Shown here piece by piece: positions 2 through 60,657 of a stretch of 64,000 bases of DNA. The translations under genes were made by a program, and so were the position numbers. Each line of letters opens with the position of its first letter. The stretch's first letter is position 1. The notes under the pieces were generated by a model. It had not been told where the DNA came from, ran no database searches, and saw only the letters and a list, made by a program, of their open reading frames with translations. The stretch comes from Denitratisoma oestradiolicum (GTDB lineage Bacteria > Pseudomonadota > Gammaproteobacteria > Burkholderiales > Rhodocyclaceae). The stretch covers positions 868,001-932,000 of the forward strand of contig NZ_LR778301.1 in assembly GCF_902813185.1 (NCBI RefSeq). Direction: 5' to 3'.

Positions 2-1069
2 GTGATGCAACTGCCCACCGGGGTGCTGGTGGATACCCTGGGCTGTCGCCGGGTGCTGGTCTGGGGCGGTGTGACGGCGGGGCTGGGTTCTCTCCTGCTG
101 GGGCTGGCCCCCAGCTTCGAGTGGGCCCTGGCGGGCCGCACCCTGGTCGGGCTGGGCGTATCGGTGGCCTTCATCGCCATGTTGAAACTGATTGCCACCG
201 ACTATGACGAGTCCCGTTTTGCCTCCATGGTGGGCCTGGGCATCCTGCTGGCCAACCTGGGCTCCGTGGCGGCTGGAGCCCCCCTGGCCTGGTTGGCCCA
301 GGCCATCGGTTGGCGCACGGTGTTCCTGGCCGTGGGGGGCCTTTCCCTGGCACTGGCGCTGCTGAGCCGATTCGGCATCCGTGAAGTACCGAGGGTCCGT
401 GGCGATCGAACCGTCTGGCTGGGGGGGCTGTGGCGAGTGATGAGCAATCGGGCCACCTGGCCAGGCTTCTTCGCCAACCTGGGTCTGGCAGGGGCTTTCT
501 TTGCGTTTGCAGGACTCTGGGCCGTGCCCTATCTGACCCAGGTGCATGGCATGGGCCGGGGGCTGGCATCGACCCATGTCAGTGTCTATTTCATCGGCTA
601 CGCCTGCGGCGCCGCGCTTTGGGGGCAGGTCTCCGACCGCCTGGGCAGGCGCCGGCCAGTGATGATCGGGGTTTCCGGCGCCCATGCCCTGCTCTGGTGG
701 GTCTGGCTGATGGGATCGCTGCCCCTGTGGGGCAGTCTCCTGTTGTGCTGTGCCCTGGGGCTGTGCTCGGCGGGCTTCACCCTGTCCTGGGCCTGCGCCA
801 AGGAAGTCAATCCGGTGGCCCTCTCGGGCATGGCCACGGGCCTGGTAAATGTGGGATGCTTCCTGGGGGCCAGTATCCTGCAACCCCTGTTCGGCTGGGT
901 GATGGACCTGGGCTGGCAGGGGGCCATTCTGAACGGCGCCCGGCTTTACAGCGCCGCCGACTACGCCAACGGCATCCGCCTGCTGGCCTTGGCGGCTCTG
1001 ATGGGTTGGTGCGCCACTTTTTTCATCCGCGAGACCCGCTGTCGCAACATTTCCGGAGAACTGAAATGA
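2..1069 (+). CDS. MFS transporter, 5'-truncated by window edge
   Basis: About 355 residues of a major facilitator superfamily permease. The frame is open to the window edge and begins at what looks like the second membrane helix (QLPTGVLVDTLGCRR is the usual MFS motif A between TM2 and TM3), so roughly the first 50 residues lie upstream. Hydrophobic helices follow to the C terminus, and a second loop motif (GQVSDRLGRRRP) marks the second six-helix half. The substrate cannot be read from the sequence. It lies directly upstream of the sirohydrochlorin chelatase gene, separated only by a tandem repeat. The family assignment is firm; the substrate is unknown. Confidence 0.88.
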   Translation: MMQLPTGVLVDTLGCRRVLVWGGVTAGLGSLLLGLAPSFEWALAGRTLVGLGVSVAFIAMLKLIATDYDESRFASMVGLGILLANLGSVAAGAPLAWLAQAIGWRTVFLAVGGLSLALALLSRFGIREVPRVRGDRTVWLGGLWRVMSNRATWPGFFANLGLAGAFFAFAGLWAVPYLTQVHGMGRGLASTHVSVYFIGYACGAALWGQVSDRLGRRRPVMIGVSGAHALLWWVWLMGSLPLWGSLLLCCALGLCSAGFTLSWACAKEVNPVALSGMATGLVNVGCFLGASILQPLFGWVMDLGWQGAILNGARLYSAADYANGIRLLALAALMGWCATFFIRETRCRNISGELK

Positions 1070-1223
1070 AACCACCCCCACGCTCGCTTCGCTCGCTGCC
1101 TCCCGAGGGGGTGTCAGTACGCTTGGGGCGGCCCGGCGCGTACTATGAAACCACCCCCACGCTCGCTCCGCCCGCTGCCCCCCGAGGGGGCGCCAGTACG
1201 CTTGGGACGGCCCGGCGCGTACT
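1066..1223. repeat. Tandem 79-bp repeat between MFS gene and cbiX
   Basis: Two tandem units of exactly 79 bp (1066-1144 and 1145-1223) with a few substitutions. Each begins ATGAAACCACC and ends GGCCCGGCGCGTACT. The first unit starts at the overlapping ATGA that ends the upstream gene, and cbiX starts ATGAAAGG at 1227 right after the second unit. The ATGAAA word is therefore present three times, as if the element had expanded an original stop/start overlap. Confidence 0.85.
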
Positions 1224-1226
1224 GGC

Positions 1227-1592
1227 ATGAAAGGCATCGTCCTGTTTGGTCACGGCGCCCGTAACGCGGAGTGGGTGGAACCCTTCCATCGCATCCGTGC
1301 CGCCATCCTAGCCCGAGTCCCGGAGGTGCCGGTGGAAATGGGTTTTCTGGAATTGATGCGCCCCACCTTCGCCGAGGCGGTGGATGGTCTGGTGGCACGG
1401 GGTGTGACGGAGATCGTGGTGGTGCCGGTGTTCATGGCGGCAGGTAGCCATGTGAAAAAGGATCTGCCCCTGATGGCAGCAGAAATCATGGAACGGCATC
1501 CGCAACTGGAAATCGCTATCGCTGCCGCCGTGGGGGAGTCGCCCCAGGTGATCGACGCCATGGCGACCTACATCCTCGGTGCGGCGGGGTGA
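1227..1592 (+). CDS. cbiX: CbiX/SirB-type sirohydrochlorin chelatase
   Basis: 121 residues, the size of the short single-domain CbiX(S) chelatases that insert Co or Fe into sirohydrochlorin. The N-terminal VLFGHGARN carries the catalytic His typical of the family, and VVPVFMAAGSHVKKDLP carries the second metal-binding His region. Cytoplasmic. Siroheme is the cofactor of the nitrite reductase NirB encoded at 15.7 kb, so a ferrochelatase role in siroheme synthesis is plausible, but a cobalt role cannot be excluded. The start ATG follows the 79-bp repeat. The gene converges with the chemoreceptor gene, leaving 7 bp between them. Confidence 0.87.
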   Translation: MKGIVLFGHGARNAEWVEPFHRIRAAILARVPEVPVEMGFLELMRPTFAEAVDGLVARGVTEIVVVPVFMAAGSHVKKDLPLMAAEIMERHPQLEIAIAAAVGESPQVIDAMATYILGAAG

Positions 1593-9827: not shown

Positions 9828-10745
9828 ATGAGCACAGTACTGGCGTTCAAGCCGCCGGAGGAGGAGGTCTCCTCCATCGCCGTGCCGGTGGCAGAAGTCG
9901 AAGCCGTGGCCGAGCCAGTGAGCGAACTGGCGGAATTCCCTCAGCTCAGCGCCGGTCACCGTCTGCGGGAGGGGCTGGCCCGGGTGGCGGGCCGCATGTT
10001 GCCGCCCCTGATCGGCTTTGGTCTGTTGATCGGGCTTTGGGGCCTGGCGACGATGAAGGGAGGCGCCATTCCCAGTCCGGCCCAGGTCTGGGCGGCGGCG
10101 GTGCAGCTCTTCTCGGACCCCTTCTATCGCAACGGACCCAACGACCAGGGCATCGGCTGGAACGTGCTGTCCTCCCTGCAACGGGTCGGCATCGGCTTCG
10201 GCTTCGCGGCCCTGGTGGGCATTCCCCTGGGCTTCCTGCTGGGGCGCTTCGAGACCCTGAACCGCATGTTCGACCCAGTGATCTCCCTGTTGCGTCCGGT
10301 CTCGCCCCTGGCCTGGCTACCCATCGGCCTGCTGGTGTTCCAGAAGGCCGACCCGGCCGCCACCTGGACCATCTTCATCTGCTCCATCTGGCCCATGATC
10401 ATCAACACCGCCGTGGGCGTGCAGCGGGTGCCCCAGGACTACCTGAACGTGGCCCGGGTGCTGAACCTGCCCGAGTCCAAGGTCATCACCAAGATTCTCT
10501 TCCCCGCCGTGCTGCCCTACATGTTGACCGGCATCCGCCTGTCCATCGGCACCGCCTGGCTGGTGATCGTGGCGGCGGAGATGCTCACCGGCGGCGTCGG
10601 CATCGGCTTCTGGGTCTGGGACGAGTGGAACAACCTCAAGGTGGAGCACATCGTCATCGCCATCTTCGTCATCGGCATCGTCGGGCTGATCCTGGAACAG
10701 GCGCTGTTGCTGCTGGCCAGCCGCTTCCAGTACGAATCCCGCTAA
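9828..10745 (+). CDS. nrtB: Nitrate ABC transporter permease NrtB
   Basis: 305 residues. A cytoplasmic N-terminal tail of about 60 residues is followed by five to six helices and the ABC permease EAA-like loop (VPQDYLNVARVLNLPESKVITKILFPAVLPYMLTG region). The C-terminal WDEWNNLKVEHIVIAI is typical of NtrB/NrtB permeases. I chose ATG 9828, six nt after AAAGGAG; an ATG at 9807 is in frame. It follows nrtA by 25 bp. Forms the membrane channel for the ATPase encoded at 10911. Confidence 0.91.
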   Translation: MSTVLAFKPPEEEVSSIAVPVAEVEAVAEPVSELAEFPQLSAGHRLREGLARVAGRMLPPLIGFGLLIGLWGLATMKGGAIPSPAQVWAAAVQLFSDPFYRNGPNDQGIGWNVLSSLQRVGIGFGFAALVGIPLGFLLGRFETLNRMFDPVISLLRPVSPLAWLPIGLLVFQKADPAATWTIFICSIWPMIINTAVGVQRVPQDYLNVARVLNLPESKVITKILFPAVLPYMLTGIRLSIGTAWLVIVAAEMLTGGVGIGFWVWDEWNNLKVEHIVIAIFVIGIVGLILEQALLLLASRFQYESR

Positions 10746-10750
10746 CGCGC

Positions 10751-10870
10751 ATGGTCGCCAGCACCACCCCCGAGGATGAAATGCGTAAAGTCAAATTGAA
10801 CGCCCCCCACCCCCATCCCCGCCCCGGGGCGGGGCTACCCATCGGTTCGCTGCGCTCAACGGTCACACCC
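10751..10870. repeat. Dispersed intergenic repeat, family C, copy 1
   Basis: 120 bp starting ATGGTCGCCAGCACCACCCC and ending CGCTGCGCTCAACGGTCACA, with a CCCCGCCCCGGGGCGGGG core. A highly similar copy lies in inverted orientation at 34461-34580. Fragments appear near 15123 and 19638. The element sits inside the nrt operon between permease and ATPase genes without obvious terminator T-runs. Confidence 0.8.
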
Positions 10871-10910
10871 GGCTCCGTTGATGCTTTTTTACGTTAAAGG
10901 AGAGTGGATC

Positions 10911-15099: not shown

Positions 15100-15177
15100 T
15101 GTGAAAAAACATAACGGCGCCGCGTGTGACCGTCGAGCGCAGCGAACCGCTGAATAGCCTTGCCCTGGAGAACCGCC

Positions 15178-26436: not shown

Positions 26437-29400
26437 CTATTGAATGATTTCCCGCCAACTGACCCGCTTGCCCACGGGTGGCGCGACATCGAAGGGAGCA
26501 GCGACGGTGATCTGCTCCGCTCCCGAGGTGGTCGCGATGACCACAGTCTTGCCGCTGGGCAGACGCACCACGGTGATGCCCACCGCCAGGGATTCGGTGC
26601 CCCCCGCCTTGACCAGCCGCTGGCCGATCTGGCCGCCGGTGGAATTGGCCACGGCGCAGCCCGTGGCGTAGTTGAAGTAGTTGAGCCAGGCATAGCCGCC
26701 GATGTTGCAGGCATTGTTCTGGGGCACGTTGCTGGCCGCGATCAGGGTGCCCAGTTGCAGTTTGATATCCACATTCACCCGTTCGCCGCTGTCGGGCAGG
26801 TCAGCGTACCAGCCGTCGGGGGAGCTGCATTCGGTCGCGGCCGAGACGGCGCGGGTGGCGGTCAGGCCGCTGCCCTGGTTCTCGATGGTGATGGGGTTGA
26901 GGGTCGAGCGGAGACTGGTGACCGCCGTGGTGCTCAGGGGGTCCTTGATACTCCAGATGGTCTGGGTCTGGGTGTTGCTGCTGTCGGTGCTGCCCAGGTA
27001 ACGTCCGGTGCCCACATAGACGAAAGGCTCGCCACCGACCTCGGCCAGTTCCGGCCGGGTGGTGATGGGCTGAGGTGTGCCGGTCCCATCAACCGCCTGG
27101 GCCACCAGGGTGGCTTCCCGGCCGGCCGGCAGGTAGCTGTTGTTCACGTCGAAGCGCCAGATGTTGCCGAGCAGGTCGACGCCGTAGATACGGTCCACCG
27201 TGTTGTTGCGCAGACCGTTGCTGACCCAGCCATTGATGTGATTGAGGCCGCTCGGGCTCGCCGATGAACCGGCGCCGGTGCTGATCTTGTACAGGATCTT
27301 GCCGGTGGCGGCTTCCAGGACATAGAGATAACCCTGGCCATCGCCCGCCACGGCCGGGGCGTTGACGTTGTTGTAGCCGGAGGTGACGAACACCACCCAG
27401 CGCCCGTCGGCGAGCTTGCTGATGATGGGGTTGTTGAAGGTGTAGCCCACATGGCAATCGGAATACCAGGTGGCGATGCTGGCGGCGTCGTAGCAGGTGC
27501 TGCTCCACTTGAATTCCCACAGGCCTTTGGGTGAGGCCGGGTCGGTGATGTCCAGGGCGTAATAACCCTTGCCGCCCTTGTTGAGCCCCCCCACCAGGAT
27601 GGTTTTCCAGCAGTTCTCCGGCTGGGCCGGGGAACTGTCGCAGCCGGTGACGGTGGTGTCGAAAATGTCTCCCACCGACGGCGTGCCATCCACCATATAG
27701 GTATGTTGGCTGGCGTAGTTCTCCGTGGCCAGCTTGTACATGTTGGGCAGCACCATGGTCGGGATGAAGGCCCAGGCCTCTTCGCCCCCCTGGCTGTCCA
27801 CGATGGAGGTGCCGGCATGGAAGGCGTGCAGCATGCCGTCGTTGGCGGCGGTGAAGACCAGGGGGGTGCGGCCGGCCTGGTTGGTCTTGAAGGTGGTGTA
27901 GCCCGAGTCGTCGTATTCGGCGAAGGGGGCTTTCACATAGACCGGCTGGGCGTTGATGATGTCGCCCATCACGTGATCCCGGCTTCGATAGAGTTCGCTC
28001 AGGTCGTTGGCGGTGAATGAGTCGACAATTTCCTTGCCGCTCTGGCCCCGCAGATAGTTCACCAGATTGGCGCCCGCGGCGGCGGAACGCTGATCCACCG
28101 TACCGGCCGTGCCATCCGTCATTGAGGGGTACTGACTGAAGAGGCTCACCTGGCTGGTGCCGAAGTTGGCCTGCTCGCCGGCGTTCAGGCCGGTGGAGGC
28201 GCTGCCGGTGGGACTGCCGCTGCTGTCACAGGCATAAGTGTTCCAGGTGAAGTCCGTCAGGTTGTTGGTGGCGCCGCTGCGGAACAGCTTGATGGTCCGG
28301 TTGTCGCAGGCGCTCTTGGCCTTGGCGTCCAGTTTGGTCTGGGCGGACCAGATGATGGTGCTGGTGACCTCGCCCGTGGTCAGGTCGATTTCATGGGCTT
28401 CCAGGTCGCCCTCCCATTTCTGGGTGACGTACTTGGCGGTATAGGCGAAGTTGTCGCCGGCCACGGGTTCCAGGTTCGAGGTGGCTGCGGCCGCCGCCGA
28501 GGCGACCCGGGCATTGATGCCCGCCAGGGCTGAAGTGAGGGCATCCACCACCGAGTCCGGATCCCGGGCGCTGAAATACTGCCCCCGGCCATTCACCGCT
28601 CCGTGCCACAGATCATCCAGAGCGGTGGGGTCGTCGGCGCTGGGGGTGGGCCAGTTCCGGGTGCCCTGCTTGATGTCGTAATAATCGCCGGAAGTGGCGG
28701 TCTTGTAGTCGGAGCGATAGGTCAGGGTGCCGGAGAGCCCCAGGCCCATGGTGAAGGTGGTCAGATGCTGCCAGTTGGCCGTGTCGGCCTCGGCGCCGGT
28801 GCCGGAGGAGGGCACGTTGTTGTCGCAGACGCTGACGGTTCCGCCCAGGGCGCCGGTGCAGTTGCCCAGGCCGGAAGTTCGCAGGTCGGTCTTGTAATAG
28901 TGCTGGGCCACATCCGCCAGGGTGTTGCTGGTGCCGCCGCTGGTGGTGGCGGTTTCGCAGGGCCAGGCGCTACAGCCGGCGGGCAGCGCGGGAGGGCCGC
29001 TGCCGGTCACGATCTGGGGATTGGGGTTGGGCAGGGCGGGCACCGAGGCGGCTGGATAGCAGGTTCCGGTCTGATCGGTCCAACTGCCGACACTGCTGGT
29101 AGGGCCGCTGATGATGGATCCGCTCTGGCTGGGACCGGGATAGGTGGTGCTGGTGGTGGTGCTCTGATACTGGATCTTCTGGCCAGTGGCATCCGGAACG
29201 GTCTGGCAGACTGTTTGCTGGCCGCTGCCATCGACGACGGATGGGGTACAGGAGCCTACATTGGCCCAGGCGGTGAGGTCCACCGTCTGGCATTCCTGGG
29301 TGGCGGAGGGAACGCACGTGCCGCCGGTATTGGTCCATGGGCCATACGCTGTCTGACACTCTCTTGCCGTGCCGACGGAGTAAGGGTCGGAGGAATCCTT

Positions 29401-31290
29401 GGCGATGGCGGTGCAGGAGCCTGTGCCGCTCCAGGCCGACCAGTCGGAATATTGGCACTGGCGCGCGGTGCCGACGCTCCATGTGCCGCTGGTGTCCTGA
29501 TTTACCGCATCGCAGGAGCCGGTATTGCTCCAGGCCGTCCAGTCCGTGTATTGACAGTCGCGGGCGGTGCCGGTGCTCCATGTGCCACTGGTGTCCTGGG
29601 AGACCGGCGTACAGGATGTCGTATTCGTCCAGTCGCTCGTCAGGGCGTATTGACATTGGCGGGCGGTGCCGACGCTCCATGTCCCGCTGGTATCCTGGTT
29701 GGCAGGGGAGCAGGAGCTGGTGTTGTTCCAGGCTGTCCAGTCGGTGTATCGGCATTCCCTGAGGCTGGGGTTGGACGTGTCCGGTGCGCAGGAGGAGGTG
29801 TTGCTCCAACTGCTCCACGTGCTGCCGCTGTTGGACGATGTCCTGGTCTGTAGCGTCGACGTCCGGGCCTGAAGCGTCCAGATACGTTCCTGCAAGGAGG
29901 AGGTTCGTTCCTGTAGGCTGGCAGTGCGCTCTTCGAGGCCCAGCGGGCGCGACTGCCACTGCACCGTCTTCTGCTGGGGCTGGTTGTAGGTGCAGGAGGC
30001 GTAGCGGTACTGATTGGAGGCGCTGTTCCAGACATACTGGGATGCGGCGCCGTCGTAGATGGGGCGGGGCGAGACGGCGATCTTGCTGCCGGAAGGGTTG
30101 TAGGCATCCAGTTCGGAGAGCACGCCGTCCTGGTTGTTCATCAGGGTGCTGCCGTTTACCTGCCGGCCATCGCCCGAGTTCCAGTAGCCGTCCGTGGTGA
30201 AGATGGCAAAGTTCTGCTGGCAGGAATACTGGATCGGATCGTCGGTCTGGGCCGGCACCATGCCCTTGTTGATCAGGTCGTTCTTGCCGGTGAAGTAGCG
30301 GCCGGCAACGGACAGGGCGGTGCGCAGGGGCGTGGCGGAGTTGCCATCCTGGGAATAGAGCTTGCTGTACCAGTTGGCGCGTTGGGTGGTGTCGAAATCG
30401 GCGACCTTGAGGAACTTGCTGGCGGAGACCGAACTGCCGTTGGCCGCGCCGTTGCTATCGACGGTGCCGGGGTGAATGGTCATGAAGCCGATCCGGTAGC
30501 TGTCGTTGAGCTGGGCCATGGCGCGACCGGCGGCGGACTTCATCATTTTCATGCGGGAGCGGTAGTAGCTGTACCAGTTGGCGAAATTCTGGCGTTCGTC
30601 GCTGCTGCCGGGACCGGATGTCGCGCCGACCTGGGTTTTCTGCCAGACCAGGGTTTTCCCGGTACCGCAGGTGGGTGGGCTGCTGGTGGGGTATTCAGCG
30701 CTGGTGCAGGTGCTGCTGGACACCGAGGGGCTGCTGCAACAGATGCCGGTAGTGGCGCTGGTCACCGAACTGGTGGAGTAGTTGCACAGGCCCGCATCCG
30801 GGGTCGGCGTGCCCAGGCTGGTGGCCGCGTAGGTCCAGTAGTAGGCGGCCCGCGAACTTTCGCTGCCATCGGCCGAGAAGGAGGTGCTCAGGTTGTTCCG
30901 GGTGGTGCTGCCTGACGACATGTAGGTATTGAAACCCTCCACATAGGCGCTGGTGAAACTGGTCTGGCTGGCACTGTTGAGATCGGTGCCGGCCGAATCC
31001 TTGGGAATGAGGTAATTGACCGCCGGGTTGTAATAGACCGTGTTGCACAGGTGGTTGCGATAGCCGATGGCATTGCTGCTGACGCCATCCGGCATCCAGG
31101 TCCAGTCCATGGAACCGGAATCGTCCAGCACGAACAGGATGTTGGGTTTGACCTGGGTGGATGAGGAGCTGGCCAGGGGCACATCGGCCAGGTCGGTGAG
31201 GGCCAGGCTGGTGACGGGGAGTGCCGCCAGGGCCAGAGTGAGCGACAGGGCGGCGGATCGGCAAGGCCGGGTGGCGGAGAACGGGAACAT
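26437..31290 (-). CDS. pilY1: PilY1-type pilus tip adhesin with heptad and TSP1-like repeats
   Basis: 1617 residues, long for PilY1. A signal peptide is followed by a von Willebrand A domain with a canonical MIDAS (DDSGS, residues 56-60). At 452-486 come five heptads (LEERTAS, LQERTSS, LQERIWT, LQARTST, LQTRTSS). At about 490-700 come about seven Cys/Trp repeats of the pattern DWTAW..(T/S)(S/G)SC...R.CQY. The C-terminal beta-propeller of PilY1 follows (NDGMLHAFHAG, LVGGLNKGGKGYYALDITDP). PilY1 primes minor-pilin assembly and presents the adhesin at the pilus tip. ATG 31290 precedes the signal peptide. Last pilin-type gene of cluster A. Confidence 0.9.
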   Translation of the reverse strand: MFPFSATRPCRSAALSLTLALAALPVTSLALTDLADVPLASSSSTQVKPNILFVLDDSGSMDWTWMPDGVSSNAIGYRNHLCNTVYYNPAVNYLIPKDSAGTDLNSASQTSFTSAYVEGFNTYMSSGSTTRNNLSTSFSADGSESSRAAYYWTYAATSLGTPTPDAGLCNYSTSSVTSATTGICCSSPSVSSSTCTSAEYPTSSPPTCGTGKTLVWQKTQVGATSGPGSSDERQNFANWYSYYRSRMKMMKSAAGRAMAQLNDSYRIGFMTIHPGTVDSNGAANGSSVSASKFLKVADFDTTQRANWYSKLYSQDGNSATPLRTALSVAGRYFTGKNDLINKGMVPAQTDDPIQYSCQQNFAIFTTDGYWNSGDGRQVNGSTLMNNQDGVLSELDAYNPSGSKIAVSPRPIYDGAASQYVWNSASNQYRYASCTYNQPQQKTVQWQSRPLGLEERTASLQERTSSLQERIWTLQARTSTLQTRTSSNSGSTWSSWSNTSSCAPDTSNPSLRECRYTDWTAWNNTSSCSPANQDTSGTWSVGTARQCQYALTSDWTNTTSCTPVSQDTSGTWSTGTARDCQYTDWTAWSNTGSCDAVNQDTSGTWSVGTARQCQYSDWSAWSGTGSCTAIAKDSSDPYSVGTARECQTAYGPWTNTGGTCVPSATQECQTVDLTAWANVGSCTPSVVDGSGQQTVCQTVPDATGQKIQYQSTTTSTTYPGPSQSGSIISGPTSSVGSWTDQTGTCYPAASVPALPNPNPQIVTGSGPPALPAGCSAWPCETATTSGGTSNTLADVAQHYYKTDLRTSGLGNCTGALGGTVSVCDNNVPSSGTGAEADTANWQHLTTFTMGLGLSGTLTYRSDYKTATSGDYYDIKQGTRNWPTPSADDPTALDDLWHGAVNGRGQYFSARDPDSVVDALTSALAGINARVASAAAAATSNLEPVAGDNFAYTAKYVTQKWEGDLEAHEIDLTTGEVTSTIIWSAQTKLDAKAKSACDNRTIKLFRSGATNNLTDFTWNTYACDSSGSPTGSASTGLNAGEQANFGTSQVSLFSQYPSMTDGTAGTVDQRSAAAGANLVNYLRGQSGKEIVDSFTANDLSELYRSRDHVMGDIINAQPVYVKAPFAEYDDSGYTTFKTNQAGRTPLVFTAANDGMLHAFHAGTSIVDSQGGEEAWAFIPTMVLPNMYKLATENYASQHTYMVDGTPSVGDIFDTTVTGCDSSPAQPENCWKTILVGGLNKGGKGYYALDITDPASPKGLWEFKWSSTCYDAASIATWYSDCHVGYTFNNPIISKLADGRWVVFVTSGYNNVNAPAVAGDGQGYLYVLEAATGKILYKISTGAGSSASPSGLNHINGWVSNGLRNNTVDRIYGVDLLGNIWRFDVNNSYLPAGREATLVAQAVDGTGTPQPITTRPELAEVGGEPFVYVGTGRYLGSTDSSNTQTQTIWSIKDPLSTTAVTSLRSTLNPITIENQGSGLTATRAVSAATECSSPDGWYADLPDSGERVNVDIKLQLGTLIAASNVPQNNACNIGGYAWLNYFNYATGCAVANSTGGQIGQRLVKAGGTESLAVGITVVRLPSGKTVVIATTSGAEQITVAAPFDVAPPVGKRVSWREIIQ

Positions 31291-31958: not shown

Positions 31959-33079
31959 GGCGCCGTGCCCCAGATGGCGTTGCGCAAGGGAATCATGGCC
32001 TGGTAGACCCGGTAGCGGTAGTGGCGCCAGTCGTTGGGGTCGTCCGGGTTGGAGTCCGCGCCGCCGTCCAGGTCGGTCATGGTGAAGGCGCCGCCGGCCC
32101 AGACGGGGGCCGTGGGGGTCACCGCAACTTTCTCGTATTGCTGGCTGCGGGCCAGCAAGCCGATGCGGATGGCTGAAACGCTGCTCCAGGCCTGGGGCGC
32201 CGCCCAGTTGGGGGGGGCCAGCGCCGACCACTGCATGACGCCGGCGACGCGGATGCCGTATTCCGCCTGAAGATCGATGATGCCCTCGGCCACTTCCGTC
32301 CAGTCGTTCTGATTGTCCGGATTGCCCAGCCCGTCGCTGTCCCTCAGGTCGCTGTAATGCAGATCGTCGGTGCTGGTCAGCAGGCGGCCATTGGAAATCT
32401 GCCAGATGTTGCGGCGCGGATCGGCTCCCAGGTTGTAGATGCCGCCGGGGGTGAAGACGATGCCCAGTCCCGCGGCTGCGTTGTAGCGGGCCGTGACTGC
32501 GGCATTGTCCTGGCCGGTGTAGTTGCCCGAGGCATGATTGACGGTGATGCCGTCGGCATTGGTATTGTCAGTGGTCTCCACCAGTCCGCAGGTGGTGGCG
32601 TCCTGGGTGATCAGGATCAGATCGCCGCGTTCCACGCCGCTGCGGGTGCTGAGGGTTTTCGAGGTGGGGGCGGAGGCGGTATAGGTGATGCTCTCCGAGG
32701 CGAGATTGGAGTTGCCGTAGAGCACGGTGACAGTGTCGGGAGCGCCGCCGGCGCCATCGGCGATGAGCACCGGCACCAGGGGGAAGGTGAAGGCCGTGAC
32801 GGGGCGCAGACGGTCGTAGGCATTGACCGTGCAGCCCATGACGTTCGTCGCTCGGCCGAAGCCGTAGCCCGCCATGCGCATGTCCCGCTCGACGCTGTAC
32901 AGGGCGATGGAGCCGGAGACCTGAGCATCGCTGCCCGAGGACGCGGTGCGCTTTTGTTGGTCCCAGCGTTGCAGCATCTGGAACATGACCAGGATGCCGA
33001 GCAGCCCGATCAGCATGCCCACCATCACCTCGACAATGGAAAAGCCGTGCTGGCCTGGGCGGAGAGTGGGGGCGCTCAC
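31955..33079 (-). CDS. pilW: PilW-type minor pilin
   Basis: 374 residues. The prepilin cleavage region is QHGFSIVEVMVGMLIGLLGI with Glu at mature position 5, followed by a long beta-rich PilW domain. I chose GTG 33079, nine residues before the class-III leader: GGAGGG sits 7 nt upstream. The longer in-frame extension to 33235 would translate repeat DNA ([11 protein letters not shown]) and is rejected. The upstream junction with pilV is filled with a repeat that carries the Shine-Dalgarno. Confidence 0.88.
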   Translation of the reverse strand: MSAPTLRPGQHGFSIVEVMVGMLIGLLGILVMFQMLQRWDQQKRTASSGSDAQVSGSIALYSVERDMRMAGYGFGRATNVMGCTVNAYDRLRPVTAFTFPLVPVLIADGAGGAPDTVTVLYGNSNLASESITYTASAPTSKTLSTRSGVERGDLILITQDATTCGLVETTDNTNADGITVNHASGNYTGQDNAAVTARYNAAAGLGIVFTPGGIYNLGADPRRNIWQISNGRLLTSTDDLHYSDLRDSDGLGNPDNQNDWTEVAEGIIDLQAEYGIRVAGVMQWSALAPPNWAAPQAWSSVSAIRIGLLARSQQYEKVAVTPTAPVWAGGAFTMTDLDGGADSNPDDPNDWRHYRYRVYQAMIPLRNAIWGTAP

Positions 33080-33224
33080 TGGACTACCCTCCCCCCGACC
33101 CCCTCCCCGAGGGAGGGGGTTCGCGGGGCGAACCCCGTGGGGAATTGGAGAGCCCTCCCCCCCGGCCCCCTCCCCGAGGGAGGGGGTGACGAGGGTTCGC
33201 TGCTTCGCGGCTCCGGGTCTTTGC
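33080..33224 (-). repeat. Junction repeat between pilV and pilW (family A)
   Basis: On the minus strand, two CCCCCTCCCTCGGGGAGGGGG blocks (one partly diverged) lie between the pilV stop (CTGAGC) and the pilW start (GTGAGC). The downstream end reads GGAGGGTAGTCCA, the same end as at lpxA (59862-59874) and nearly that at rseP. Confidence 0.82.
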
Positions 33225-33701
33225 TCAGTTGACATAGGCGATGACCGTGTGCCGCCGGGGGGTGGCGTCGGCGGCGGTCTGCCAGCAGAGGGTTACCGTC
33301 ACCTGGTTGAAGGCGGCGGTGGTGACGGCGATCTGCTGCATCGTGGCGGCGCTGCCGGGTAACTGTGTCGCCACGTCGGCCAGCCAGTCGATGACCTGCT
33401 GATTGGCCGAGGCATCGCCGCTGAAGGCGCAGGTGGCGTCGGTGGCGGCCTGATGGGCATAGGCCACCAGGGAATTCTGCAAGGTGGCCGAACTGGTCCG
33501 GTCCACGTTGAGGTCGATCTCGCCGATGATCCGATCCGCCAGGTTGGCGGCTTCGATGCGGAACTGGGCATCGTTCTGGGCGGAAATGGCCGTGGCCTGG
33601 AGGGCCACCATGGACAGAATCCCCAGGGAGAAAATGAGGATGCCCATCAGGGCCTCGATCAGGACGATGCCCGATTGCCGGTACGGAGTGATCGTCAGCA
33701 T
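33225..33701 (-). CDS. pilV: PilV-type minor pilin
   Basis: 158 residues. Leader YRQSG is followed by IVLIEALMGILIFSLGILSM with Glu5, the class III prepilin signature cut by PilD. The ectodomain has two cysteines (TCAFSG, LCWQTA). ATG 33701 overlaps the fimT end by 7 bp. Confidence 0.86.
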   Translation of the reverse strand: MLTITPYRQSGIVLIEALMGILIFSLGILSMVALQATAISAQNDAQFRIEAANLADRIIGEIDLNVDRTSSATLQNSLVAYAHQAATDATCAFSGDASANQQVIDWLADVATQLPGSAATMQQIAVTTAAFNQVTVTLCWQTAADATPRRHTVIAYVN

Positions 33702-34460: not shown

Positions 34461-34580
34461 GGTCGAACTGTCGAGCGCAGCGAGCTGATTGGTAGCCCCG
34501 CCCTGGGGCGGGGATGGGGGTGGGGGGCGTTCAATTTGCCTTTGCGAATTTGCATCCTCGGGGGTGGTGCTGGTGGCCAT
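34461..34580. repeat. Dispersed repeat family C, copy 2 (inverted)
   Basis: About 120 bp, reverse complement of 10751-10870 at most positions, including CCCCGCCCTGGGGCGGGG and GGGGGGCGTTCAATTTG. It abuts the pilE stop codon at 34582. Confidence 0.8.
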
Positions 34581-35016: not shown

Positions 35017-35127
35017 CGCAAGGACTCCCATAGAAGGCGACTGTGGCGAATCTATGGCAAGCCGGAGGGAGAATCTATCGCGTGCTCGTGGATTCTTGCG
35101 TAGTGGAACGACTACATGGGAGCGGCC

Positions 35128-35381
35128 GGCGCCAGCCGCAACCCCTCGGCGCTGCTACGACGCGCTCCGTGATATCGAGCGGAGCGAGCCGTATCGCCCC
35201 CCCGGAGGGGGCGAAGGGGGCGAGCCTTAGCGTAAAAAGCGAGCTTTCCCGCCGGGCCGTCCCAAGGGAAAGCGGCACGCGGCGCCAGCCGCAACCCCTC
35301 GGCGCTGCTACGACGCGCCCCGTGATATCGAGCGGAGCGAGCCGTATCGAACCCCCCGGAGGGGGGCGAAGGGGGCGAGCC
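35128..35381. repeat. Direct repeat pair, family D
   Basis: Two copies of about 100 bp (35128-35226 and 35281-35381), each starting GGCGCCAGCCGCAACCCCTC and ending GGGGGCGAGCC, with AGCGGAGCGAGCCGTATCG inside. Between them lies GCCGGGCCGTCCCAAG, related to part of the 79-bp repeat at 1066-1223. The second copy ends 2 bp before the stop codon of the response regulator. No promoter is clear. Confidence 0.85.
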
Positions 35382-51914: not shown

Positions 51915-52692
51915 GCTGCGGGCCATGACCGCCCTGGTGCTGGTGGCGGCCATCCTGGCGATCCTGTTTCTGGCGCCGCCCAGCCTGGCCTTCGCCTTCT
52001 TCGCCCTGGTGGCGGTGGTCGGTGCCTGGGAGTGGGGCGGCCTGGTGGGCGGCGGTGCCTTCTGGCGCCGAGGGTTTCCGCTGCTGGTGATGGCCGCTTG
52101 CGGCGTGCTGTATCTGCTGCCTGAAATCCGTATCCGTCTTTGGCTGGGCGCCGCCCTGTTCTGGCTGCTGCTGGTGCCCGTCTGGTTTCGCTATCGCTGG
52201 CCCCTCAAGGGCAACTTCCAGGCCCTGGTCATCGGCCTGCTCTTGCTGCTGCCCACCTGGGCCGCCCTGGTGCGGATCTACGACCTGGGGCCGGTTCGCC
52301 TGCTGGCGGTGATGGGACTGGTCTGGGTGGCCGACATCGCGGCCTATCTGACTGGCCGGGCCTTCGGCCGCCACAAGCTGGCCCCCGCCATCAGCCCGGG
52401 CAAGACCTGGGAAGGCGCGGCTGGCGCCGTGCTGGCGGTGCAGGTCTATGGCTTCGCCCTGGCGGCGGCCTTCAAACTCGACATCGCCTATGTTCCCTAT
52501 GCCGGCTTGCTGCTGCTGCTGACGGCGGCAAGCATCGCCGGCGACCTGTTCGAGTCCCTGATCAAGCGTCAGGCCGGAGTCAAGGACAGCAGCGCGCTGC
52601 TTCCGGGCCACGGGGGCGTACTGGACCGCATCGACAGCCTGACATCCACCCTGCCTCTGACAGCTCTCGCTCTGAGCTTCGTGTATCCATGA
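51907..52692 (+). CDS. cdsA: Phosphatidate cytidylyltransferase
   Basis: 261 residues, about eight membrane helices. The CdsA signature S-x2-KRxAGVKDSSxLLPGHGGxxDRxD is complete near the C terminus ([27 protein letters not shown]). Makes CDP-diacylglycerol for phospholipids. Overlaps uppS and, by ATGA, dxr. Confidence 0.96.
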
Positions 52693-53870
52693 CCCGCCAA
52701 CGCCTGACCATCCTGGGAGCCACCGGCTCCATCGGCCTCAGCACCCTCGATGTGGTGGCCCGGCATCCCGAGCGCTTCGAAGTCGTCGCCCTGACCGGCC
52801 ATCATCGGGTCGAGGTGCTGGCCCGGCAATGCCGGACGCACCACCCCCGCTATGCTGTCGTTGGCAGTGCCCAGGGCGCCGATCAACTGGCGGCGTTGCT
52901 GGGGGACGAGGCCCATGGCATGGAAATCCTCTGGGGAGAGGCAGCCCTGGAACAGGTGGCGGCCCTGCCCGAGGTGGATGCGGTGATGGCGGCCATCGTC
53001 GGAGCGGCGGGCCTGACCCCCACCCTGGCCGCGGTGCGAGCCGGCAAACGGGTGCTGCTGGCCAACAAGGAAGCCCTGGTGATGGCAGGGCGGGTCTTCA
53101 TGGCCGCTGTGAGCCAGTCTGGTGCCCGCCTGCTGCCCATCGACAGCGAACATAACGCGATCTTCCAGTCCCTGCCTGCCGACTATGCCGGCAATCTGGC
53201 CCGCTCCGGAGTTCGTCGCATCCTGCTGACGGCTTCCGGCGGTCCTTTTCTCAGTGTTCCTCTGGAGCAGTTGCAGGGCGTGACCCCCGAGCAGGCCTGT
53301 GCCCATCCCAACTGGGTGATGGGGCGCAAGATCTCGGTGGATTCCGCCACCATGATGAACAAGGGCCTGGAACTGATCGAGGCCCACTGGCTGTTCAACG
53401 CGCCCCCGGATTTGATCGAGGTGGTGATTCATCCCCAGAGCGTGATCCATTCCCTGGTGGCCTACGCCGATGGTTCGGTGCTGGCCCAATTGGGCAATCC
53501 GGACATGCGCACGCCCATCGCCCATGCCCTGGCCCATCCGGAGAGGATCGAGGCCGGCGTGGAGCCCCTGGATCTGTTCGATGTGGCCCGGCTCACCTTC
53601 GAGCGGCCGGACCTGAGCCGTTTCCCCTGTCTGGATCTGGCCTATCAGGCCTTGCGAGCCGGCGGCAGCGCGCCGGCGGTGCTCAATGCGGCCAACGAGG
53701 TGGCGGTGGCCGCTTTTCTCGATCGCCGTTTGCCCTACCTGCGCATCGCCGATGTCATCGCACGGGTGCTGGATCGAGTGCCGGCGATGGCCGTCGAGGA
53801 TCTGGAATCGGTCCTGGCCGCAGATCAGGCTGGTCGCGAGGCGGCCCTGGCCATCGTGGCTAACCCATGA
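52689..53870 (+). CDS. dxr: 1-deoxy-D-xylulose 5-phosphate reductoisomerase
   Basis: 393 residues. NADPH site [41 protein letters not shown] and metal/substrate [20 protein letters not shown]. Second step of the MEP pathway, whose last enzyme IspH is encoded at 24.8 kb. Its TGA lies in an ATGAGCGC word repeated at the rseP start. Confidence 0.97.
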
Positions 53871-54096
53871 GCGCCCCGCACCGCACGGCCGCCCAAAGGC
53901 GCGGCAGCGTTATCCATGGAGCCGGTGTTAGCCGGCGAACCTTTGTCACCCCCTCCCCCGGGGAGGGGGCTGGGGGGAGGGCGCCGCGCCGCATGGCCGC
54001 CCAAAGGCGCGGCAGCGTTATCCATGGAGCCGGTGTTAGCCGGCGAACCTCCGTCACCCCCTCCCCTGGGGAGGGGGCTGGGGGGAGGGCAGTCCA
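53871..54096 (+). repeat. Junction repeat, two 108-bp tandem copies, between dxr and rseP (family A)
   Basis: Copies at about 53873-53980 and 53981-54088 share GCCCAAAGGCGCGGCAGCG, TATCCATGGAGCCGGTG and GGGGAGGGGGCTGGGGGG blocks; period 108 bp. The element begins right after the dxr stop within ATGAGCGC and ends GGAGGGCAGTCCA before ATGAGCGC of rseP. Confidence 0.9.
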
Positions 54097-55467
54097 ATGA
54101 GCGCGTATACCCTGGCCTGGTATCTGGGGGCCTTCGCCCTGGCCCTGGGCTCCCTGATCGTCGTCCATGAGCTTGGACATTTTCTGGTGGCCCGCTGGTG
54201 CGGCGTCAAGGTGCTGCGCTTCTCGGTGGGATTTGGCCGGACCCTGTGGATGAGAAAGTGGGGCGTCGACCGCACGGAATGGGCCATCTCCGCCTTTCCC
54301 CTGGGGGGCTACGTCAAGATGCTCGACGAACGGGAAGGCGATGTAGCGCCGGAAGAGGTCCACCGCGCCTTCAACCGCCAGAGCGTGGGCAAGCGTATGC
54401 TGATCGTGGCGGCGGGGCCCCTGTCCAACCTGCTGCTGGCAGTGCTGCTGTACTGGGTCATGTTCGTTCAGGGTGTGCAGGAGGTGCGGCCCCTGCTGGA
54501 GCAGCCTGTGGCTGGGAGTCCCGCTGCTCAGGCCGGCATTCATGCCGGGGAACTGGTGCGGTCGGTGGATGGCAACCCGGTGCTCACCTGGAACCAATTA
54601 CGCCTGAAACTGATCAATCGGGCACTGGACGCCAGTGTGGTGGCCCTGGAACTCCAGGCGGCGGACGGCGCGTTGCTTGAACGGCAACTGGACTTGAGTC
54701 GAATCGCGGCAACGGAGGTGGACGAGAACCTGATGAGCCGGATCGGCCTGGCCCTGCAACGCCCCCGTTGGCCGGCCCTGGTGGGTGCGGTGGCAGCGGG
54801 TTCGCCGGCTCAGCAGGCCGGACTGCTGCCGGAGGACAAAATTCTGGAGATCGCCGGGACTCCCATTGCCTTTTGGGATGAGGTCACCGCTGTCATCCGG
54901 GCTCGGCCAGGTCAGCGCCTGCCCCTGAAATTCCTCCGGGCCGGAGAGGCCCGGCAGGTGGAAATCACGCCAGAGGTGATCGCCGAGCAAGGTGGCTCCA
55001 TTGGGCGTATTGGTGTCTCGGTGCGCGCCCCGGAGGGACAGTCACCCCTGCTGGTGGAGGTGCGGTATGGCCCCCTGGAAGCGGCCGGTAATGCCCTGAC
55101 CCAAACCTGGGATACCACCCGGCTGACGCTGGTCATGATGGGCCGCATGGTCACCGGGGATATTTCCTGGCGCAATCTTTCCGGTCCGGTAGCCATTGCT
55201 GATTATGCCGGGCAGTCGGCCCGCATGGGCCTGACTTCCTATCTGCGCTTTCTGGCCCTGATCAGCATCAGCCTCGGGGTGCTCAACCTGCTGCCCGTGC
55301 CGGTGCTGGATGGCGGGCATTTGATGTATTATCTTTTGGAATTTTTCAGGGGCCGCCCGGTTTCGGATGAGGCGCTGGAACTGGGGCAACGCATCGGGTT
55401 GGGTCTGCTGGGATTGCTGATGGCCGTTGCGCTCTACAACGATTTGAATCGTCTTATCTCCGGTTGA
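54097..55467 (+). CDS. rseP: Site-2 protease RseP
   Basis: 456 residues. Zinc protease HExxH is [11 protein letters not shown] near the start, PDZ tandem in the middle ([38 protein letters not shown]), and the LDG motif [19 protein letters not shown] near the C terminus. Cleaves anti-sigma factor RseA and signal-peptide remnants in the inner membrane. ATG 54097 takes its Shine-Dalgarno (GGAGGG, 7-nt spacing) from the repeat. Confidence 0.96.
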
Positions 55468-59322: not shown

Positions 59323-59765
59323 CCCCGATGGATATCCATCAGATCCTCGAACACCTACCCCACCGTTATCCCTTCCTGCTGGTGGATAGGGTGCTCGACG
59401 TGGTGCCCGGGGAGCGCATCACTGCCTTGAAGAACGTCACCATCAACGAGCCCTTCTTCCCTGGTCATTATCCTCATCATCCGGTGATGCCCGGCGTGCT
59501 GATCATCGAGGCCCTGGCCCAGACCGCTGCCATCCTGTCCTTCAAGACCCTGGGTGGCAAGCCCGACGACAAGTCGGTGTATTACTTCGTCGGCATCGAC
59601 AACGCCCGCTTCAAGCGGCCCGTCAGCCCCGGCGACCAACTGATCTTCGAAGTCTCCATCAATGCCAACAAGCGGGGCATCTGGAAGTTCGCCGCCGTCG
59701 CCAAGGTGGATGGACAGGTGGCGGCGGAGGCCGAATTGATGTGCACCGTGCGGGCCATCGAATGA
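59319..59765 (+). CDS. fabZ: 3-hydroxyacyl-ACP dehydratase FabZ
   Basis: 148 residues. Hot-dog fold with catalytic His in [23 protein letters not shown] and Glu in the same helix; [11 protein letters not shown] at the start. Dehydrates 3-hydroxyacyl-ACP in fatty acid synthesis; shares substrate with LpxA/D. TGA lies in ATGAGCGC. Confidence 0.96.
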
Positions 59766-59874
59766 GCGCCCCGCGCGGCCGCCCGAAGGGGTGCATTCCA
59801 CATTCCGGAGCCGCAGCGCGGCGAACCGTTGTCACCCCCTCCCTCGGGGAGGGGGTCGGGGGGAGGGTAGTCCA
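59766..59874 (+). repeat. Junction repeat between fabZ and lpxA (family A)
   Basis: 109 bp starting GCGCCCCGCGCGGCCGCCCG right after the fabZ stop and ending GGAGGGTAGTCCA before ATGAGCGG of lpxA. The CCCCCTCCCTCGGGGAGGGG hairpin and both ends match the dxr/rseP and pilV/pilW elements; the middle (CATTCCGGAGCC) differs. Confidence 0.88.
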
Positions 59875-60657
59875 ATGAGCGGGGCGGGGATACATCCCAC
59901 GGCCATCGTCCATCCTGGCGCAAAGCTGGGACAGGGTGTCGAGGTCGGCGCCTACTCCATCATCGGCGAGTACGTTGAGATCGGGGATCGCACCCGGATC
60001 GGTCCCCATGGGGTGATCGAGGGCCATACCCGCATCGGTTGCGACAACCAGATTTTCCAGTTCAGCTCCATCGGCGCCGCGCCCCAGGACAAGAAATACG
60101 CCGGCGAGCCCACCCGCCTGGAGATCGGCGATCGCAACGTGATCCGCGAGTTCTGCACCTTCAACCGGGGCACCACTCAGGATGTGGGGGTGACCCGGCT
60201 GGGCAACGACAACTGGATCATGGCCTATGTGCATCTGGCCCATGACTGCCAGGTGGGCAACAACACCATCTTCGCCAACAACGCCCAACTGGCCGGCCAC
60301 ACCATCGTCGGCGACTGGGTGATCCTGGGCGGATTCACGGTGGTTCATCAGTTCGTGCGCATCGGCGCCCACAGCATGACGGCCATGGGTTCCATCCTGT
60401 TGCAGGACCTGCCGCCCTACGTGATGGCCTCGGGCAACACGGCCGAGCCTCATGGCATCAACAGCGAAGGCCTGAAGCGGCGGGGCTTCGCTCCGGAGGC
60501 AATCACCGCGATCCGCCGCGCCTACAAGACTCTCTACAAGTCTGGCCTCAAGCTGGACGAGGCCCGGGCCGCCATCGCCGGCGAAGCCCAGGGCCAGCCG
60601 GCCCTGGAAATCCTGGCAAGCTTCCTGGCCGAGCCGGGACGGGGCATCGTGCGCTGA
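59875..60657 (+). CDS. lpxA: UDP-N-acetylglucosamine acyltransferase
   Basis: 260 residues. Left-handed beta-helix from [20 protein letters not shown]; active-site His in [31 protein letters not shown]. First lipid A step. ATG 59875 (MSGAGIHP) is favoured: GGAGGG lies 7 nt upstream inside the repeat, and the longer frame from 59791 would translate repeat DNA. Confidence 0.96.

Follow-up and report, generated by a model that had tools for sequence, protein, structure and literature searches.

A dispersed hairpin repeat forms coupled mini-ORFs at stop-start overlaps in Denitratisoma oestradiolicum and other, mostly betaproteobacterial, genomes

Mycobacterial MIRUs are repeats with units of roughly 40-100 bp, single or in tandem, that insert at DTGA coupling sites and are not known to show obvious dyad symmetry. 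The available part of a recent account describes them as apparently mobile elements that insert at start codons, with a repeat ORF that is coupled at -4 nt (PMC12548453), and their insertion is considered likely to have a minimal impact on expression (PMC12548453, citing Supply et al. 1997). Two other groups of short repeats are relevant for comparison. The GTAG REPs often supply a TAG stop, as far as the accessible text of their description goes (PMC3733652), and the Rickettsia palindromic elements (RPEs) are presented in the accessible sections of two papers as palindromic repeats inserted in frame into genes (PMC10969869, PMC3733652). We found no description of such coupling repeats outside the mycobacteria among the openly licensed papers that our searches listed.

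Here we describe a repeat between the genes dxr and rseP of Denitratisoma oestradiolicum, located in a window of 64,000 nucleotides (the whole stretch of DNA that was analysed). We consider it very probable that this small repeat is mobile, operates in the manner of a mycobacterial MIRU and preserves translational coupling at operon joints. With uninserted overlaps in congeners, recurrent insertions, a maintained phase and a covarying 5' hairpin, the repeat is, judging from sequence comparisons, evidently real, widespread, mobile and coupling-preserving.

The insert forms a mini-ORF of 77 codons, the ATG of which overlaps the dxr stop, whereas its TGA (54098-54100) overlaps the rseP start in a second ATGA (Table 1). 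This mini-ORF had no Pfam match at E<=0.01. The rseP gene was matched in all 41 genomes searched, including that of D. oestradiolicum. A preliminary description of the locus had placed two 108-bp copies exactly between the dxr stop and the rseP start. Two head-to-tail copies 108 nt apart and 94% identical are indeed present, but the first starts on base two of the dxr TGA, and the second is followed by a tail of 12 nt (54085-54096) before the rseP ATG. The same description was right about the sequence shared by both ends of the insert, ATGAGCGC being found at each, and about a built-in Shine-Dalgarno motif, GGAGGG, 7 nt before the rseP start. It had also proposed an unusual mobile or expanding repeat that opens an operon junction yet supplies the next translation start. 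The supplied start and the mobile repeat both stand, but the open, in-phase nature of the mini-ORF, which explains how a repeat can open an operon junction, had been overlooked, as had the published precedent of the mycobacterial MIRUs.

Table 1. Positions of the dxr/rseP insert, its neighbours and its sister elements, numbered from the first letter of the window.
Feature	Position	Strand	Basis or remark
dxr (DXP reductoisomerase), upstream gene	52689..53870	+	ORF, start, Pfam DXP reductoisomerase domains
dxr stop TGA	53868-53870, within ATGA 53867-53870	+	ORF
Inserted mini-ORF, 77 codons	53867..54100	+	Sequence, translation; absent in congeners G001 and G002
Repeat copy 1	53869..53976	+	108 nt = 36 codons, frame kept
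Repeat copy 2	53977..54084	+	94% identical to copy 1, head to tail
G/C palindrome (hairpin), copy 1	53949..53969	+	
G/C palindrome (hairpin), copy 2	54057..54077	+	
Shine-Dalgarno-like GGAGGG, element-supplied	54084..54089	+	7 nt 5' of the rseP ATG
rseP (site-2 protease), downstream gene	54097..55467	+	Pfam Peptidase_M50 and PDZ
38-codon mini-ORF between fabZ-like and lpxA-like genes	59762..59878	+	ATGA at both ends
In-frame fusion of the element with the start of a prepilin-like gene (gene name assigned by eye)	33071..33235	-	Cluster 901159
Element of another subtype, MFS/CbiX joint	1066..1230	+	54-codon mini-ORF, ATGA at both ends

The dxr/rseP repeat recurs in its own genome far beyond chance. 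A BLAST search with the 108-nt unit, in which 40 of 68 first-look candidates were scored, gave at least 64 matches at E<=0.001, and these fall into 39 clusters. The clusters were drawn from the BLAST matches alone, because a pattern based on the end sequence contains RTGAGC and would bias the count toward junctions; the cluster at 633470, found only by that pattern, and others found only by a second pattern were left out. Read only in the unit's own orientation, 23 of the 39 clusters are coupled, 22 of them as a strict NTGA-ORF-NTGA arrangement and one as a chain, which bears out the genome-wide bias to stop/start junctions that had been expected of a mobile repeat. The strict ORFs have 16 different lengths, from 28 to 186 codons, and a Shine-Dalgarno-like motif is present at 21 of the 22 sites. 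The chain (cluster 1645828; L115, 1645828-1646276) consists of four near-identical 38-codon ORFs, 113 nt apart and joined by GTGA, with the first ATG one base after the upstream TGA. When the genome was searched for the end sequence in a slightly shortened form, GGGNAGTCCARTGAGC, as had also been suggested, all 13 exact matches were found to open ORFs or chain units: ten begin ORFs of at least 76 codons and three begin the next unit of this chain.

Altogether 16 of the 39 clusters lack this coupling. In two of them (651139 and 2885304) the element forms an in-frame fusion with the next gene, at 901159 it is likewise fused and its ORF begins 11 nt before the end of the upstream stop, at 3960748 the overlap is 8 nt, and at 3391552 a leader mini-ORF that no gene precedes has its TAG 4 nt before a GTG start. 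Another eight lie elsewhere, at no coupled junction. Three clusters (231801, 2897532 and 3766912) look as if they lie in frame inside genes, in the manner of the RPEs; the first (231801-231959, L092) looks like an insert of about 50 residues in a KDO-transferase (waaA-like) and is supported by a Glycos_transf_N match that spans it, and the latter two are called from sequence alone. Unlike the RPEs, however, most clusters sit between genes at stop-start overlaps and not inside a single ORF.

The phase of the mini-ORFs was also strongly biased. The downstream start is in the coupling phase at 22 of the 25 clusters with an upstream NTGA right at the element as judged by reading (P=2e-8 against 1/3), at 22 of 29 if the four clusters with a distant NTGA (231801, 395465, 901159 and 3391552) are counted as failures (P=3e-6), and at 16 of 19 if only distinct ORF lengths are considered (P=7e-6), all of which are P values that come out too small because the coupled copies are partly non-independent through shared ancestry and chains. 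The host junctions include fabZ/lpxA, exbD/tonB, mrpF/mrpG, dusB/fis, cofD/cofC, tsaC/rarA-like and others, with names read from Pfam. A Pfam match was obtained for 42 of the 44 flanking proteins, the exceptions being the gene that precedes the site at 414203 and the one that follows the site at 535230, and no common functional theme was seen among the Pfam matches of the genes that flank the strict sites.

One alternative is random landing of an ordinary REP-like palindrome, the survivors being those insertions that happen to keep translation. The element does share features with the GTAG/CGTC REPs and REPINs, which the accessible text presents as short, many-copy palindromes near or inside genes that can give TAG stops (PMC3733652), and related palindromes occur away from coupled junctions (8 of 39 clusters) or, apparently, within the frame of a gene (3 of 39). 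The REPs of that account are mostly extragenic, whereas here an ORF built from units of about 62-113 nt joins two genes, and coupled mini-ORFs are not mentioned in the available parts of the papers on REPs (PMC3733652) or RPEs (PMC10969869). Scaled from the window, the genome would contain about 537, 1,811 and 4,830 NTGA joints for ORFs of at least 200, 100 and 60 codons, many of them spurious, and since such joints are few, random landing would rarely hit one. If a tenth of the genome (some 430 kb) is taken to be non-coding, these joints make up about 0.1-1.1% of it, yet 23 of the 39 clusters sit at them, which means that very strong selection or targeting would be required. Random landing is thus unlikely in our opinion, though it deserves serious consideration.

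Comparisons with related genomes indicate that the MIRU-like repeat arrived by insertion. In both same-genus genomes (G001 and G002), dxr and rseP overlap by a bare ATGA (ATGAGCGCC and ATGAATATC), from which we conclude that the repeat at this junction is an insertion; a plain ATGA overlap in relatives had been named in the preliminary description as support for insertion. A search of 40 relatives gave 29 loci, in 28 of which dxr adjoins rseP, and 20 of these 28 have an NTGA at the dxr stop. In 27 of the 28, no more than 60 nt separate the dxr stop from the aligned rseP start, so that the element would not fit. The remaining locus, L056, has a long spacer of 209 nt that is A/T-rich and bears no resemblance to the element.

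Similar empty sites were found at other junctions. N-terminal pieces of 15 downstream genes of strict sites were searched against G001 and G002, which together with dxr/rseP covers 16 of the 22 strict sites. Three of the queried sites were without usable flanks (535230 and 1127619, no upstream match; 622166, no match), and both flanks were recovered in G001 or G002 for the other 13; at 12 of these, one or both of the two genomes lack the insert. At the empty sites the genes share an NTGA overlap (GTGATG at one site) or have a stop and start that nearly abut. In a second family (f43), all three junctions inserted in one genome have a plain NTGA overlap in at least one congener, which brings the total to 15 of 16 testable inserted sites that are empty in a congener. 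The exception is the dusB-fis joint, where inserts are present in all three congeners, each of them different (L124, L297 and L294), as if this were a hot spot. A separate observation concerns the mreD-mrdA joint, which has the element in G246 and short spacers with a different sequence (67 and 34 nt) in two more congeners (L332 and L334).

These empty sites bear on the possibility that the repeat is kept as a regulator, with hairpins and Shine-Dalgarno motif tuning the ratio of dxr to rseP expression under positive selection, instead of being a selfish insert. Structure is strong in part, with z of -1.8 or lower in three of seven folded stretches, the Shine-Dalgarno motif lies within a G-rich tract that adjoins a C-rich arm, and operons of basic genes are hit (fabZ-lpxA, exbD-tonB, dusB-fis and mrpF-mrpG). 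However, the inserted sites differ between congeners, the flanking genes have no common theme, and the sites that are empty in a sister genome evidently do not need the element there. A role as a regulator therefore seems improbable.

The distribution of the MIRU-like element extends well beyond D. oestradiolicum. A wider scan of named genomes with the 19-nt core of the 5' hairpin, without the ATGA, listed 80 loci among at least 120 stretches. Among the matches listed, the hosts are, by title, mostly Betaproteobacteria (Variovorax, Ramlibacter, Hydrogenophaga, Roseateles, Sulfuritalea, Achromobacter, Aromatoleum and others), and no Mycobacterium title occurs among the 80 loci. These matches include 85 non-redundant copies, of which 57 have an NTGA-ended upstream ORF within 40 nt and 28 do not. 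A script scored 44 of the 57 as coupled (39 to a gene and 5 to a further mini-ORF), with 7 reading far into the next gene, 4 ending at another stop and 2 running off the contig. One copy (L188) was removed because its 4-codon ORF ends before the core, which leaves 43 of 85 listed copies coupled and 42 not; the coupled count includes L246, which is doubtful. Further chains of mini-ORFs were seen at L223 (3 x 21 codons) and L229 (3 x 26 codons). Coupling in the opposite orientation was scored by the script for 8 of 85 copies at an uncontrolled tolerance, and we claim no count for it.

As a control, the same 57 copies were read two bases later, which gave 8 coupled; a shift of one base is uninformative since the TGA is then read at once. 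The elements are rich in G/C and often open in a shifted frame too, so the openness of the ORF says little by itself and the phase carries the weight. With the downstream start located by Shine-Dalgarno motif and ORF alone, 36 of 44 starts are in the coupling phase, and 4 and 4 in the other two (P=5e-11, again too small a value given the partial non-independence of the copies). Within the family to which the window belongs, 30 of 121 genomes contain a match to the element; across the order, 9 of 399 genomes carry the exact 17-nt core. Both counts include D. oestradiolicum. Eleven of the 12 non-own matches to the 17-nt core were read and kept apart from the main counts: five are strictly coupled, three are fused in frame to the next gene, two are not elements, and one is, by eye, coupled at its right end with TAGATG on the left.

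It is also conceivable that the repeat is a REP which a host Y1 (IS200/RAYT) transposase moves, and three Y1_Tnp matches are present in the D. oestradiolicum genome. The GTAG REPs are linked to RAYTs in the available part of their description (PMC3733652). In contrast to such RAYT-linked REPs, the element shows no association with Y1_Tnp, which was identified in 13 of 30 element-bearing and 46 of 91 other genomes among the 121 of the family (Fisher p=0.53), and no element loop or 3' hairpin lies within 1.5 kb of the three own Y1 loci. Mobilisation of this kind appears doubtful to us, and neither the family-wide comparison nor the three own loci linked a transposase to the element, although a Y1 transposase may have been lost since or may act from elsewhere.

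What is conserved among the copies of the coupling repeat is the hairpin and the phase. In 84 of the 85 copies (83 distinct), an 8-bp stem surrounds a fixed 15-nt loop with 88.1% of the cells paired. Stem covariation is 0.589 as compared to 0.146 in shuffled and at most 0.167 in slid alignments, the innermost two pairs being imposed by the search pattern. Few pairs are G-U (14 of 363 in the five inner varying pairs), which is a weak hint that the hairpin may matter as DNA. The outer stem takes in the stop-start TGAGC, paired with GCTC, in many copies, and CGTC directly precedes the 3' hairpin in several. The units are 62, 77, 108, 111 or 113 nt long and occur singly or in arrays. RNA fold energy was dropped as a general signature since the z-scores over the seven stretches were mixed, two of them being positive. 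A known curated RNA family was rejected, with no Rfam match at gathering score for ten loci and window positions 53500-54500.

The encoded peptide, on the other hand, is unlikely to be under selection since one DNA core is read in two frames: among the 38 gene-joined copies in the matches listed, L188 having been dropped, the core reads PHGRPKG in 17 and ARPPEG in 21, and both frames end at a start codon. That the repeats are a family of genuine small protein genes is barely conceivable and was rejected, since the open frame, start codon and Shine-Dalgarno motif that speak for it are set against this two-frame core, the lack of Pfam matches for the two mini-ORFs tested and units that are freely multiplied or shortened.

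Taken together, the coupling repeat is likened to a MIRU by its mode of working. As in the MIRUs, the repeat ORF is coupled to its neighbours by a stop/start overlap of 4 nt (23 of 39 own clusters, 43 of 85 listed copies). Insertion likewise appears, from the 15 of 16 testable sites that are empty in a congener, to take place at start codons and coupling sites, and the 62-113-nt units are single or in tandem, the longest being slightly above the MIRU range. Unlike the MIRUs, the element has a hairpin with a fixed 15-nt loop and a covarying 8-bp stem, has betaproteobacterial hosts and has a core that serves two reading frames and, it seems, either orientation (window 1066; L194). Because of the different hosts and the clear dyad symmetry, and because MIRUs enter this comparison by description and not by sequence, we do not file the element as a MIRU.

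In our reading, the element very probably inserts at the NTGA stop-start overlap of two co-transcribed genes. In the inserted form, the upstream stop overlaps the start of the short ORF of the element, and the TGA of this ORF overlaps the new downstream start, preceded by a Shine-Dalgarno motif that the element supplies. Ribosomes that end dxr may then start anew on the mini-ORF, unfolding its hairpins during translation, and after stopping at its TGA start again on rseP. If so, the insertion would do little harm because translation continues through the mini-ORF onto rseP. The units could potentially multiply in two ways, by re-insertion into their own RTGA, resulting in the 113-, 77- and 62-nt chains of separate mini-ORFs, and by in-frame tandem duplication, resulting in the 108- and 111-nt arrays.

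The left end of the element is nearly always ATGA and the right end RTGA or TTGA, which makes a clean target duplication less than certain; the right RTGA may be either a duplicated target or the end of the element itself. Several sites have ATGA on the left and GTGA or TTGA on the right, while site 3934490 has a left GTGA, as in G002, and a right ATGA. Since the covarying stem overlaps the stop-start letters in many copies, the site might be chosen through base-pairing of one stem arm with the stop-start sequence, which we regard as very improbable. If true, this would be an insertion system guided by DNA to sites of translational coupling, the target of which would shift as the arm changes and which could use either orientation.

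The window contains sister elements with different relations to their neighbours (Table 1). The site between the fabZ-like and lpxA-like genes is a plain overlap in both G001 and G002. In the minus-strand element the ORF begins 11 nt before the upstream stop ends. The element at the MFS/CbiX joint consists of two 79-nt copies, and its hairpin loop looks, when compared by eye, like the reverse complement of the family loop variant GCCGGGCCGCCCCAA. Other repeats were also observed in the window. These are a dispersed repeat of up to 85 nt with 84-90% complementary copies at 10734-10879, 15113-15168 and 34467-34580, two 85-nt copies with G/C-rich ends at 35127-35381 (153 nt apart, 93% identical), and four copies of a 110-nt repeat at 29351-29757 with 99-nt spacing that share 63-81% identity with the reference copy.

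In Betaproteobacteria, an element with a covarying hairpin thus very probably works as the MIRUs do, and it is the hosts and the hairpin that set it apart. For genome annotation, the findings come with the warning that some small proteins annotated as hypothetical at operon joints may be repeats of this kind. The insertions also provide many natural experiments on translational coupling, for example at rseP, lpxA, fis and tonB, where sister sites that lack the insert allow a direct comparison. More broadly, our findings suggest that the coupling-preserving lifestyle of a repeat that hides as a ready-phased mini-ORF within an operon is not a mycobacterial oddity.
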